IMG/VR virus record: IMGVR_UViG_3300021410_000065
Location: 1 to 59,479 of that record
Origin: a virus
DNA length: 59,479 nt
Strand: one strand, 5' to 3'
Shown here: one piece after another, positions 42,982-48,352 of the stretch
Position numbering within the stretch: position 1 is the first letter of the stretch
Layout: each line of letters opens with the position of its first letter
Notes under the pieces: model-generated
What the model was told of the DNA's origin: nothing
The model's database searches: none
Seen by the model: only the letters and a program-made list of their open reading frames with translations
Made by a program: the position numbers and the translations under genes

Positions 42982-43419
42982 ATGAATGTGTCGTCAGCGA
43001 AAACCAACATGTCTCGTTTCCTGTGCCTCTGCGCTGCATTTGCGGCCATGACCGGCTGCGCTACTAAAGCCCCAGAAGATCCTAAGCTCAGTGCGATTGC
43101 GGCATGGCGCCCCGCTGCTTCCGCTGCGGTGGATGCCGGACAACTCTCCCAGTCGCAGTATCTCCAGCAGCTTTATGAGATCGTTTCCGCACCGCCAGTC
43201 GATCGCAGTGATGTGATTTGGATGCGCAGACTTGCGCAAGATATTGATACCAGCGAGAAGCTTGAGCGCGGTTCGATCTCAGAGTCGGAAGCTGTGACCC
43301 AAATGCGATTTAGCGAGGTTCGTTACCAAGACGAAATCGACGCATACATGCGCAGCTTAATGCCCGCTCAGGCATCCTGCGTCACTTGGCAGGGTTTCAC
43401 ACAATGCAGATCGCACTGA
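42982..43419 (+). CDS. Lipoprotein co-transcribed with the repressor
   Basis: 145 aa. Signal peptide with hydrophobic LCLCAAFAAMTGC and a lipobox; the residue after Cys is not Asp, so an outer-membrane location is expected. The mature part is small, helical and acidic, ending in a Cys-containing CVTWQGFTQC. It starts 15 bp after the cI stop and ends before a strong terminator (43449-43471), so it is expressed from the lysogenic promoter. A lysogeny-linked surface lipoprotein suggests lysogenic conversion, such as superinfection exclusion; function is inferred. Confidence 0.82.
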   Translation: MNVSSAKTNMSRFLCLCAAFAAMTGCATKAPEDPKLSAIAAWRPAASAAVDAGQLSQSQYLQQLYEIVSAPPVDRSDVIWMRRLAQDIDTSEKLERGSISESEAVTQMRFSEVRYQDEIDAYMRSLMPAQASCVTWQGFTQCRSH

Positions 43420-43448
43420 CGTAGCCGAGAAGTCGGCTTGAACGGCAG

Positions 43449-43471
43449 ACCCGCAATGGCGGGTTTTTTTT
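43449..43471 (+). terminator. Terminator of the cI-lipoprotein operon
   Basis: ACCCGC, loop AATG, GCGGGT, then eight T. It insulates lysogenic transcription from the rightward early promoter downstream. Confidence 0.9.
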
Positions 43472-43537
43472 CGTCCATCCAATTCACCGCATTCATCGCC
43501 GGCATGCTCGCCAATCCCCAACTTCCGTCCGTCAGTA

Positions 43538-43576
43538 GTAGCATTTGCTCTTGACTCAATGAGTAGCGTTAGCTAC
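43538..43576. promoter_or_regulatory. Second operator cluster
   Basis: Two copies of the immunity palindrome: 43538-43551 (GTAGC-ATTT-GCTCT) and 43563-43576 (GTAGC-GTTA-GCTAC, perfect). They abut the -35 and overlap the -10 of the rightward promoter, so the same repressor controls both directions. Confidence 0.88.
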
Positions 43577-43579
43577 TAT
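43551..43579 (+). promoter_or_regulatory. Rightward early promoter
   Basis: -35 TTGACT (43551-43556), 17-bp spacer, -10 TACTAT (43574-43579). Two operators overlap it. Drives the recombination/early-right operon starting with a structured leader. Confidence 0.88.
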
Positions 43580-43585
43580 TCTTTC

Positions 43586-43697
43586 TACGCGCTGTGCATC
43601 AGCGTAGGAAGACCCCCTCGGCCCTGCAACCCATGCAGGAGGACGTACCGCCACGAAGTCGGATGGGGATGGGATCGCAGGACCACGCTCTTTAACA
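43586..43697 (+). promoter_or_regulatory. Antitermination-like leader: two hairpins and boxA
   Basis: Right at the predicted transcript 5' end is TACGCTG-TGCAT-CAGCGTA (43586-43604), a 7-bp stem with a 5-nt loop. A second hairpin is CCTGCA-ACCCA-TGCAGG (43623-43639). CGCTCTTTAACA (43686-43697) matches rrn/nut boxA. boxA plus boxB-like hairpins is the signature of N/Nus-dependent antitermination, or of RNA-only put-type elements. Confidence 0.72.
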
Positions 43698-43706
43698 ACC
43701 TGACCG

Positions 43707-43865
43707 ATGAATAGCGCGACCTACAGGGACACGCCTACCCGACTTGCTGGGGGTAGAAGCAAAACCCAGAAAACCGACCGCCGGATCACAGCGCGCAACT
43801 TGGCGCAGCTGCCGGCGGACGGTGACCGCGATTTCGCGGCGCCTGTATCAGCCGATGGCGCGTAA
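43707..43865 (+). CDS. Small Arg-rich ORF, possible N-like antiterminator
   Basis: 52 aa; residues 4-32 are rich in Arg/Lys/Thr (RDTPTRLAGGRSKTQKTDRR, then ITARNLAQL), followed by an acidic end. It begins 9 bp after boxA. No Shine-Dalgarno is visible. Small Arg-rich proteins near nut sites are N-type antiterminators in lambdoid phages; here this is only a positional and compositional analogy. Confidence 0.42.
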   Translation: MNSATYRDTPTRLAGGRSKTQKTDRRITARNLAQLPADGDRDFAAPVSADGA

Positions 43866-43869
43866 TCGG

Positions 43870-44031
43870 ATGAAGACCACGGGGATAGTCCTGGACCCAC
43901 TGTCCATTGCAAGCCGGTTCGCCGGGTGTTGTGCAACTGGCGGTGTGCAGTACCAAGCCGTTCGCAAGAGCGGCCTTTGGCGAGCGCCATTGACCGAATT
44001 ATCAGACAACCGTGCAGGGTGTGTCGGTTGA
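43870..44031 (+). CDS. Small ORF in early leader
   Basis: 53 aa (MKTTGIVLDPLSIASRFAGCC...), starting 4 bp after the preceding ORF stop. It has four Cys and a mixed composition. No clear ribosome-binding site. It is co-directional with the rightward promoter and convergent with the PIN gene. Possibly coding; no family recognised. Confidence 0.4.
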   Translation: MKTTGIVLDPLSIASRFAGCCATGGVQYQAVRKSGLWRAPLTELSDNRAGCVG

Positions 44032-44068: not shown

Positions 44069-44647
44069 TTACCCAGCGCGCCGGTCTAGTGCTGCTCGAA
44101 TGTACTCCGCGAGGGAAGCTCTCGCCGGATCGAACTCAGCCAAGAACACAACGTTGCCGCCCTGAAGATAAGCGTCATTTATTGGACCTTTCTTTTGATC
44201 CAAGGACAGCACCACAGAATGCTTAGCTCGCGCGGCAAGAGAAATATCAGCCTCGTCCTGAAACAGGCCGGTTTTCGGTCGCATTCGGCTGTGTCGCTCC
44301 TTCAGCGGCGTGCGCTGTTGCTGCATGAATTCAAGTTCCTCTATATCAGCAAACCGGCCCGAATTGAAGCCGCTGACACGCTGTTGCTCTAACGGAAACC
44401 TCTCATCGTAAAAACCGAAGTAAGAGTCAACCTCTACCAAGCACTTGCTGATAGAAGCCCGTATGAACTCTTCTAGCCACGGCTTGTTTTCACGGATCGG
44501 GGGAATTTCAAACTCTGCTTCGCGCGTTATGCAAATACAAAAATCAGGTCGTGGTAACGCGGCACTCAAATCAATCTGATGCAGGAAGAGAAAATCCCAG
44601 ACGTTGTTGTCGATGTATACGCTGATCGGATGCTCATTGGCGCTCAT
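44069..44647 (-). CDS. PIN-domain-like protein (possible RNase)
   Basis: 192 aa, ATG with an AGGAGG. It begins with a strand carrying the first PIN acidic residue (ISVYIDNNVWDFLF), followed by CICITREAEFEIPPIRE with Glu. Later comes DEADISLAARAKHSVVLSLDQKKGP, containing the D-x-D/S-like acidic end of PIN nucleases. The order and spacing fit VapC-like or other PIN RNases, though it is longer than VapC. No antitoxin gene is visible beside it; the upstream 380 bp are noncoding-looking. It is transcribed against the early operon, so it behaves as an independent moron. Confidence 0.72.
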   Translation of the reverse strand: MSANEHPISVYIDNNVWDFLFLHQIDLSAALPRPDFCICITREAEFEIPPIRENKPWLEEFIRASISKCLVEVDSYFGFYDERFPLEQQRVSGFNSGRFADIEELEFMQQQRTPLKERHSRMRPKTGLFQDEADISLAARAKHSVVLSLDQKKGPINDAYLQGGNVVFLAEFDPARASLAEYIRAALDRRAG

Positions 44648-46259: not shown

Positions 46260-46483
46260 AGCGCCTTTGCAACGCCTGGCGCATTCACTGCGCCCGCCGC
46301 GACCAGCTGCCGCCGCTGGATCGCGATCGCTACGACATGGACATGCGCGAACTGGCCGTGTGCCTCGCGGCGTTCCTTGCCGTCTTCCTCTTCAGCGTAA
46401 TCATCATGCCGACTCTCGACGCCCAAGCCGAGGCTCGCATGGCCCAAGAACATCGCGGCACGACCACATACGCCGCCAAATAG
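46256..46483 (+). CDS. Small single-pass membrane protein
   Basis: 75 aa. A charged N-terminal part (about 30 residues) is followed by a membrane helix (ELAVCLAAFLAVFLFSVIIM) and a short tail, so it has a type II-like topology. Coupled to the upstream mini-gene. Unknown role. Confidence 0.65.
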   Translation: MKRLCNAWRIHCARRDQLPPLDRDRYDMDMRELAVCLAAFLAVFLFSVIIMPTLDAQAEARMAQEHRGTTTYAAK

Positions 46484-46491
46484 GAGCCGTC

Positions 46492-47523
46492 ATGGCCGAC
46501 ATTGTTGAACTGGCCGTAGTGCCGAAGGAAAGCGCGCTGCAGGTATTCAGTGCTACGAATGGGCTGGATCCTTACCTGGAGCAGATCCGGGAGGTGCTGG
46601 ACGCCTTCGAACCGGACGTGTCCACCAAGAAGGGCCGCGACGCAATTGCTTCGATCGCCCACAAGGTATCGAAGGCCAAAACCGCGCTCGACGGTGTGGG
46701 CAAGGATCTTGTCGCAGACCTCAAAGATCTGCCCAAGAAGGTGGACGCTGAGCGCAAGCGAATGCGCGACACGCTCGACACCTGGAAAGACGAGGTGCGC
46801 GCTCCACTTACCGCGTGGGAAACGGCAGAGCAGGCGCGGATCGATCGCCACACCGATGCGATCGAGAAGATTCGAGCCGCCGGCGTCGTCACTCTCGAGG
46901 TCGACGCCGATTCGCTGCGCCAGTGCATCGCCGCGATCGACGGCATCGATGTCGGCGAGTCGTGGGAAGAATACGAACCGGAGGCGGTGCGCACGAAAGA
47001 GCGCACGCTGGCCAGCTTGCGCGAAGCGCTCGTGAAGCGTGAGAAGCACGACGCCGACCAGGCGGAACTGGCGCGCCTTCGGCAGATCACCGCCGAACGC
47101 GATGAAAAGGACCGGCTGCAACGCGTCGCCGACGAAGCTGCAGCCGCCGAACGCGCCCGAGCCGAAACCGCCGCGGCGAACGCCCGGGAAGAAGCCGCGC
47201 GTCAGCTTGCAGCGGCCAACGCCGCCACCGAGAAAGCCGAGAGGGAACGGTTGGAGGCCGAGCAGGCCGCCGAGCGGGCCCGCGCGAATGCTCAGGCGCA
47301 AGCAGATGCGGCAGCCGCGGCAGAACGCAAGCGGCAGGCAGACGCCGCCGCCGAGGAAGAGCGCCAGCGCGTGGCGCGCGAGAACGATCGCGCACACCGC
47401 GCCAAGATTAACGGCGCCGCCCTGGCGGCACTGATGGCCGGCGGCCTGACCGAAGACTGCGCAAAGACCGCAATCACGCTGATCGCGCGAGGCCAAGTGC
47501 CGGCGATCCGCATCGACTACTGA
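46492..47523 (+). CDS. Coiled-coil protein preceding the recombination genes
   Basis: 343 aa from the ATG at 46492 with TAGGAG; the longer frame is spurious. Residues 1-190 are a folded helical domain (LEQIREVLDAFEPDVSTKKGRDAIASIAHKVSKAKTALDGVGKDLV; QARIDRHTDAIEKIRAAG). Residues 195-310 are a long Ala/Glu/Arg coiled coil. The C-terminal 35 residues (NGAALAALMAGGLTEDCAKTAITLIARGQVPAIRI) form a conserved end. Proteins of this type regularly precede ERF-type annealases in temperate phages and are sometimes misnamed TolA. Likely role in recombination or replication; function unproven. Confidence 0.82.
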   Translation: MADIVELAVVPKESALQVFSATNGLDPYLEQIREVLDAFEPDVSTKKGRDAIASIAHKVSKAKTALDGVGKDLVADLKDLPKKVDAERKRMRDTLDTWKDEVRAPLTAWETAEQARIDRHTDAIEKIRAAGVVTLEVDADSLRQCIAAIDGIDVGESWEEYEPEAVRTKERTLASLREALVKREKHDADQAELARLRQITAERDEKDRLQRVADEAAAAERARAETAAANAREEAARQLAAANAATEKAERERLEAEQAAERARANAQAQADAAAAAERKRQADAAAEEERQRVARENDRAHRAKINGAALAALMAGGLTEDCAKTAITLIARGQVPAIRIDY

Positions 47524-47530
47524 GAGGATC

Positions 47531-48352
47531 ATGAACGACACAATCGAATTCGCCACCAGTACTGCCACCCAATCGCCCGTCCGACAGCAAGTGCCGATCG
47601 CCCCTACCGCCAACGGCACCGTCCCGGCGATCTCCGACCGCTCGCCGGCAAGCATGATGATCGCCGCGTTCAAGGAAGGCATCCCGCTCGATCAAATCGA
47701 GAAGATGATGGACCTGCAGGAACGCTGGGAAGCAGGCGAAGCCAAGAAGGCATTCACGGCCGCGATGACCGCATTCAAGGCGGAGCCCATCACCATCCTC
47801 AAGCGGAAGCACGTCAGTTTCGACACGAGCAAGGGCAACACCAGCTACAGCCACGCCGAACTGTCCGACGTCACTGACGCGATCGGGCCAGCGCTCGCCA
47901 AGCACGACCTGACCTACGACTGGGAGGTGCGTCAAGACGGTGGGCTGATCACTGTCGATTGCGTGCTGACCCATGTGCGCGGGTACTCGAAGAAAGTCAC
48001 CTTGTCCGGCTCTCCTGACGCCACCGGCGGCAAGAACTCTATCCAAGCGTCTGCCTCGACCGTGACATACCTCGAGCGCTACACCCTGCTCGCGGTTACC
48101 GGCATGTCCACCAAAGGCATGGACGATGACGGCGCCGGCGCAACGCAGCCGGAGGACATGACGCTGCGCGACACCTGGATTTCGAAGGTGAATGCGGCGA
48201 AAGACAACGAGTCCCTGCAGGCGGTCTGGCAGGACGGCTTGAAGGACATTCAGGCCAACGGCACCCCCGCTGATTACAGCGCGCTCAAGGCCGTTGTTCT
48301 TGCCCTCAAAAAAGGCTTTGACGCCGCAACCGCTCAAGGAGCATCCGAATGA
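47531..48352 (+). CDS. erf: ERF-family single-strand annealing protein
   Basis: 273 aa. Core: AKKAFTAAMTAFKAEPITILKRKHVSF, then YSHAELSDVTDAIGPALAKHDLTYDWE, and TYLERYTLLAVTGMST. This is the ERF superfamily pattern. It anneals complementary single strands during recombination and, with the adjacent exonuclease, forms a Red-like system. The stop overlaps the exonuclease start. Confidence 0.93.
   Translation: MNDTIEFATSTATQSPVRQQVPIAPTANGTVPAISDRSPASMMIAAFKEGIPLDQIEKMMDLQERWEAGEAKKAFTAAMTAFKAEPITILKRKHVSFDTSKGNTSYSHAELSDVTDAIGPALAKHDLTYDWEVRQDGGLITVDCVLTHVRGYSKKVTLSGSPDATGGKNSIQASASTVTYLERYTLLAVTGMSTKGMDDDGAGATQPEDMTLRDTWISKVNAAKDNESLQAVWQDGLKDIQANGTPADYSALKAVVLALKKGFDAATAQGASE

Follow-up and report, generated by a model that had tools for sequence, protein, structure and literature searches.

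To our knowledge, RNA antiterminators that need no protein are hardly known beyond put and EAR. The put RNA of HK022 alone modifies RNA polymerase; in the available part of PMC9378689 it is described as an RNA of about 70 nt with two stem-loops that binds the β′ zinc-binding domain and acts without a phage protein, with putL just 3′ of the promoter. EAR, a cis-acting RNA of the Bacillus eps operons, has processive antitermination activity according to the accessible portion of PMC7858274. A different route runs through boxA, which, as the accessible text of PMC5725501 has it, binds NusB/S10, the Nus complex making polymerase resist Rho, whereas a boxA near a start codon represses instead.

We analyzed the early leader of an IMG/VR virus record of 59,479 bases, the whole of which is called the window here (Table 1). 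A sequence-only reading had seen in it an antitermination leader with a perfect hairpin of 7 bp and a 5-nt loop at the transcript start, a second hairpin, a boxA like that of rrn operons, and a 52-aa ORF. The early promoter, second hairpin, boxA, and ORF are indeed present where that reading had placed them. The 5′ hairpin is shorter than claimed: we found 5 Watson-Crick pairs plus one G-U wobble (G43589-U43605) around a 5-nt loop, and the outer arms CTACG/CGTAG can add pairs only across a 2-nt bulge. As a leader with two hairpins, the region is real and larger than claimed; what had been missed is a conserved, pseudoknotted RNA that includes the second hairpin and reaches up to boxA. In it, a closing stem and a covarying stem-loop accompany an invariant core, and the loop forms a pseudoknot with the 3′ tail. 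Hairpins alone would prove nothing, because perfect hairpins of at least 5 bp occur about once per 100 nt in the window and shuffled versions of the 136-nt leader fold as well as the leader itself (z, -0.94). Single-sequence folding of the window leader did not favor the fold of the element, the programs used being unable to form pseudoknots. Upstream of the promoter, a 145-aa lipoprotein-like ORF (42982-43419, plus strand) without a Pfam or PHROGs family match lies 3′ of the S24 repressor gene and is followed by a terminator-like site at 43447-43466.

Table 1. Features of the early leader and early operon, with positions in the window
Feature	Position	Strand	Basis
Sigma-70-like early promoter, TTGACT-17-TACTAT	43551..43579	+	9/12 consensus matches
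Dyad AGTAGC-GTTA-GCTACT over the -10 of the early promoter		+	Listed as stem; probable operator
5′ hairpin near +1, 5 Watson-Crick pairs, loop UGCAU (5 nt)	43590..43604	+	Perfect-hairpin search and comparison with members
Structured RNA element, full match to R1 and R2	43611..43685	+	R1, 45.2 bits, E 3.4e-9 over 0.92 Mb; R2, 54.6 bits (R2 includes the window sequence)
P1, CCCC (within 43613-43617) with GGGG (43665-43668)	43613..43668	+	Pairs in 91.7% of cells
P1b, C43619-G43645 and G43620-C43644, proposed continuation of P1	43619..43645	+	RNAalifold on A1
P2, CCUGCA-ACCCA-UGCAGG, 6 perfect pairs	43623..43639	+	R1 match, perfect-hairpin search
Pseudoknot, P2 loop CCCAU (43630-43634) with AUGGG (43669-43673)	43630..43673	+	Loop/tail class comparison
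P3, CCG (43648-43650) with CGG (43660-43662), proposed, in the invariant core loop	43648..43662	+	RNAalifold on A1, pair counts
boxA, GCTCTTTAACA	43687..43697	+	Exact
52-aa ATG ORF	43707..43865	+	ORF list; no relatives
Antisense gene, phrog_26388 (unknown function), crossed by the early transcript	44069..44647	-	PHROGs E 1.7e-30
Early operon, phrog_1376 protein and Erf-like recombinase	46483..48352	+	Pfam, PHROGs; same families 3′ of related leaders

Viral contigs scanned for boxA and its flanks yielded 79 stretches, and when loci L011, L022, and L069 were set side by side with the window, a common stretch was seen between promoter and boxA. The core pattern read from these four sequences found 62 viral and 29 genome stretches, the viral ones nearly all sited between a -10 box and a boxA. 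Because the pattern was partly read from the window, the core stretch is not independent evidence; the stems and the pseudoknot are independent of it. Alignment A1 held 40 type A sequences, and covariance model R1, from which the window and type B were left out, matched the window over the full element. Among the other 94 loci of the same search only L011 gave a clear match; thus, the other exact-boxA viral loci searched with R1 lack this RNA. Four weak matches in a model search (15 to 18 bits) were treated as chance. The joint model R2 gave 76 matches in 100 sources, namely, 60 of the 61 viral pattern loci given to it (all except L103), L011, the window, 7 of the 29 genome pattern loci, and 7 loci reached through genome searches, with element lengths of 73 to 102 nt; the Bordetella phage L188, which was among the 100 sources, had no match. 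L103 (a chance match in coding sequence, with no model match), L116 (on the same contig as L011), and the 22 of 29 genome pattern matches without a model match were left out, and merging of elements with identical 40-nt flanks reduced the 76 to 68 unique members. A pattern for the L202 form returned one contig (L210), which had no model match. With a relaxed pattern, 107 stretches were obtained; the 35 new loci among the matches listed were searched together with L210 (36 loci) and gave one clear member, L215, five other listed matches (15 to 21 bits) being treated as chance. In BLAST searches, the window leader gave nothing but short, chance-like pieces in named phages, and a type A leader matched Klebsiella and Bordetella phages in boxA-spacer pieces only. 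The covariance models place the RNA in dozens of Achromobacter-type phages and prophages.

Comparison of the members indicates that a conserved structured RNA is located between the promoter and boxA. In an alignment fitted to P1, P2, P2a, and the first P3 model, 97.1% of cells were standard pairs (60 distinct rows, 24 pairs), compared with 90.0% after shuffling and at most 50.9% in slid controls; the pseudoknot is part of neither R1 nor R2. Two-sided changes were found in 11 pairs versus 5.5 in shuffles, with none of 500 shuffles reaching 11, and the covariation score was 0.165 versus 0.065 for shuffled rows (60 rows). Most of the covariation is carried by P2 and the pseudoknot. P2 is 99.3% paired and has two-sided changes at four of five pairs. 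One pair of P1 changes from C-G to G-C and A-U; the fifth P1 pair is not formed in 21 of the 60 rows, and at this pair shifts in the alignment cause P1 of the window to appear poorer than it really is. P1b is paired in 100% of the cells of alignment A4, one pair being lost in L215, and has no covariation support, because it is invariant in A4. For P3, a first model that joined GAC (43642-43644) to GUC (43658-43660) is invariant in A1 and broken in L202 and L203, where CCG/CGG is intact; the latter was therefore preferred, and covariation was found in neither version. Since P1b and P3 hardly vary, both are proposals only.

If the loop of P2 pairs with the 3′ tail, loop and tail should change together, and the other members do carry different complementary loop/tail pairs at the same place: UCGCC(U)/(A)GGCGA in type A, CCACCU/AGGUGG in L202 and L203, UCCCA/UGGGA in type B, UCCUA/UAGGA in L215, and CCCAA/UUGGG in L101 and L154, next to CCCAU/AUGGG in the window. 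The six loop classes each match their own tail with a sum of 33, which was reached by 2 of 720 permutations (identity included) and by none of 5000 tail shuffles, in a test that was run after L202 and L215 had been found and with the choice of classes made with the data in view. An earlier permutation with seven representatives was weak (504 of 5040 reached their own sum), because the B-like loops are interchangeable. Two-sided changes occur in four of the six pseudoknot pairs. The pseudoknot of the window taken alone is not significant, a fraction of 0.24 of the shuffles reaching 4 pairs, and L108 and L136 fit it weakly, with 3 and 2 contiguous pairs, respectively.

The surroundings of the RNA recur among the members as well. 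A promoter scoring at least 9/12 was found in 50 of 67 members (4.4 in shuffles; L161 has too little upstream DNA and was not counted), and in most relatives 26 to 34 nt separate the end of the -10 box from the start of the element. The 5′ hairpin near +1 is variable in sequence and had a z of less than -1 in 48 of 55 members, in a test for which the promoter position was assumed in some rows. On the other side, a boxA with at most one mismatch adjoins the RNA in 54 of 67 members (0.01 in shuffles; L156 has too little downstream DNA and was excluded), and 7 of the 67, with four or more mismatches, have no recognizable boxA. The window contains two boxA sites at up to one mismatch, with 0.35 expected, and the one beside the RNA is exact. 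Its core had been called identical to that of the rrn boxA, and GCTCTTTAACA does occur unchanged in the rrn leaders of the Achromobacter genomes G001 and G004; the rrn-type leaders of these two host species read CAGCAGTACC-GCTCTTTAACAA. At L209, a 16S gene follows such a leader by about 200 nt; L208 has similar flanks, and its sequence ends short of any 16S gene. Directly 5′ of boxA, the six bases were AGCACC (11), AGTACC (9), or AGAACC (7) in 27 of the 50 members whose boxA fits GCTC[CT]TTAANA. Since the same boxA is preceded by a similar six bases in rrn leaders, it is plausible that the boxA region was copied from one. The T7-like Klebsiella phage PRA33 also carries an untranslated early sequence, AGCACCGCTCTTTAACAA, that resembles an rrn leader 5′ of its first gene (L187:680-720).

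The RNA and boxA are separable, because the seven members mentioned have no boxA and other boxA leaders have another RNA or none. The 107 boxA sites in the fetched loci, which were gathered by both patterns and are no census, divide into 36 with and 71 without the RNA. Both observations speak against joint action insofar as the two are not obligate partners. In 15 sites the sequence after boxA is similar; 4 of these have the RNA, 5 have another module (Bordetella avium phages among them), and 6 have neither, with boxA only 8 nt after the -10 box in two of the six (L041 and L050). The other conserved module (CCAAGGCCAGCAAGGG...) lies between promoter and boxA in L188:2850-3033, L204:8350-8430, L021, L047, and L077, its carriers include the B. 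avium phages IFTN1 and IFTN5, and it is probably a second leader RNA. A hairpin-forming stretch, GATGCC..GGGGCAACCCG, just 5′ of boxA in L020, L046, L028, L086, L070, and L059 is possibly a further module. In genomes, R2 matched 10 of 268 in the family of G001 (the genome of L160, Achromobacter pulmonis), 3 of 300 in the order of G005, and 2 of 10 in the family of G796, and in wider samples it matched G001 itself only (1/369 and 1/398), with strict filters applied to searches of more than 40 genomes.

An antisense gene lies within the leader of 1.5 to 2 kb, which has little coding sequence in the sense direction. Not until 45548, 1.8 kb downstream, does a sense gene with a family match begin. 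Seven chosen proteins 3′ of related leaders, from four loci, were Erf, RecE/YqaJ-type exonuclease, ParB-like, RdgC-like, and phrog_1376 proteins; we take YqaJ and RdgC to be the appropriate names for what PHROGs describes as exonuclease and recombination-associated exonuclease. Terminator-like sites in the early region of the window were not above chance (10 found and 10.5 expected on both strands); therefore, intrinsic terminators were rejected as the target of antitermination, and the target would have to be Rho. In sum, the comparison shows the fold (P1, P2, and the pseudoknot), the place between promoter and boxA, the conservation of the RNA, and the recombination genes downstream.

We consider it probable that the RNA and boxA antiterminate without an N analogue, and the leader is best read as an RNA-based, rrn- and put-like antiterminator for early recombination operons. 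The earlier idea of an antitermination leader thus stands as the best-supported reading, with its put-like form, in which no phage protein takes part, fitting better than the form with nut and N. RNA polymerase would start at about 43586, and the nascent transcript would present in order the 5′ hairpin, the compact pseudoknotted RNA, and a boxA with exactly the sequence found in Achromobacter rRNA operons. Here, as in rrn operons, boxA would bring in NusB-S10 together with the other components of the host's Nus complex, and the folded RNA would remain associated with polymerase during elongation, or else with that complex. Polymerase would then resist termination, most likely by Rho, across the leader until the recombination genes are reached, and an N-type phage protein seems unneeded. 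The RNA may contact polymerase directly, as HK022 put does, or may bind a phage or host protein. It appears to be a new family outside Rfam: for the whole window, Rfam gave nothing at the gathering score except a tRNA, at permissive settings two matches below threshold came up in 43500-43900, both on the opposite strand, so that a known RNA family was rejected, and no published description was found in the open-access literature, to which the search was confined. More tentatively, we propose a new family of phage RNA antiterminators in which the pseudoknotted nascent RNA itself would modify the host polymerase, work together with an rrn-derived boxA, and be one of several interchangeable modules that Burkholderiales phages place between their early promoter and boxA.

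Could the leader instead be a nut-like site, at which the RNA binds an N analogue of the phage, be it the 52-aa ORF or another Arg-rich protein, in a complex with boxA and Nus factors? The exact boxA would suit such a site, and four loci (L130, L135, L139, and one more) have a 130-aa Arg-rich ORF (MN[EQ][SN]RIKRRAARIG) 0.3 to 0.9 kb 3′ of the RNA; its product is a candidate RNA-binding protein, though one that only a minority of members encode. An ORF with at least 8 R/K in the first 24 residues occurs at 15 of 63 loci, a count without a chance control. However, the 52-aa ORF, which had been put forward as the N analogue, matches nothing in Pfam or PHROGs and has no relative in a scan of viral contigs; it is probably not a functional gene, and its role in a nut-like element is unsupported. 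When short ORFs in the first 1.5 kb 3′ of 63 leaders were clustered, no family common to all members, Arg-rich or otherwise, was found, and the Arg-rich ORFs vary among loci, whereas the RNA is conserved. The RNA is also far bigger than boxB and sits 5′ rather than 3′ of boxA, and between boxA and 43760 of the window there is no boxB-like perfect stem of at least 5 bp with a loop of 3 to 8 nt. We therefore regard a nut-like site as quite unlikely.

It is unlikely, too, that the RNA serves some other purpose (to protect the 5′ end, to provide a pause or folding site, to act as an immunity or antisense RNA, or to sense a ligand) and that boxA alone antiterminates in the rrn manner, even though the related leaders in which the same post-boxA sequence follows a boxA close to the -10 box or another RNA module would agree with this, as would the members with RNA and no recognizable boxA. 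In L108, a start codon close behind the RNA would suit a local role there. But the members stand behind the early promoters of long operons and not beside one type of gene, and Rfam gave no match to known immunity RNAs or riboswitches. An immunity RNA in particular is at odds with promoter and operator sequences that vary among phages while the RNA stays. Control of the suhB type, in which Nus factors brought in by boxA repress the translation of a gene close by, is known for a boxA near a start codon (PMC5725501, accessible text), but here the first family-matched sense gene is far downstream and the sole close ORF has no relatives, which makes this explanation hardly credible.

If the preferred reading, antitermination by RNA and boxA without an N analogue, is true, a conserved pseudoknotted RNA with a host-type boxA would be a further class of antiterminator, with dozens of natural variants, outside the enterobacteria. 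It would offer a direct way to ask how RNA polymerase is altered by a nascent RNA, with or without Nus factors, and leaders with boxA by itself, with boxA and a different RNA, or with the RNA but no boxA would amount to a natural experiment on the evolution of antitermination modules.

Like EAR, the window leader is a putative cis-acting RNA; EAR is non-phage and lies inside its operon, and the window leader has no Rfam match. With lambda N/nut and with Gp17/nut of mEpimmI (PMC11893012, in the part available) it shares a boxA in the early leader and long early operons, and it differs from lambda nut in that the window has no perfect, boxB-like hairpin 3′ of boxA and in that the viral scan with the 52-aa ORF brought up no N analogue. 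Membership in put was rejected: R2 reached at best 9.8 bits (E 1.8) in HK022 (L205), not at the putL candidate, in a comparison made in the direction of R2 to HK022 only, and the topology differs from two stem-loops. Unlike put, the leader has a 5′ hairpin, a closed junction, a pseudoknot, and a boxA, a word absent from the account of put in the available part of PMC9378689. Like putL and putR, it is structured, promoter-proximal, and sited in early phage operons. From rrn leaders it differs in having the structured RNA and a phage operon, R2 matching only phage-type leaders in the Achromobacter genomes; with rrn antitermination (NusB-S10, NusA, NusG, and SuhB) it shares an exact boxA and a spacer similar to that of the Achromobacter rrn leaders.
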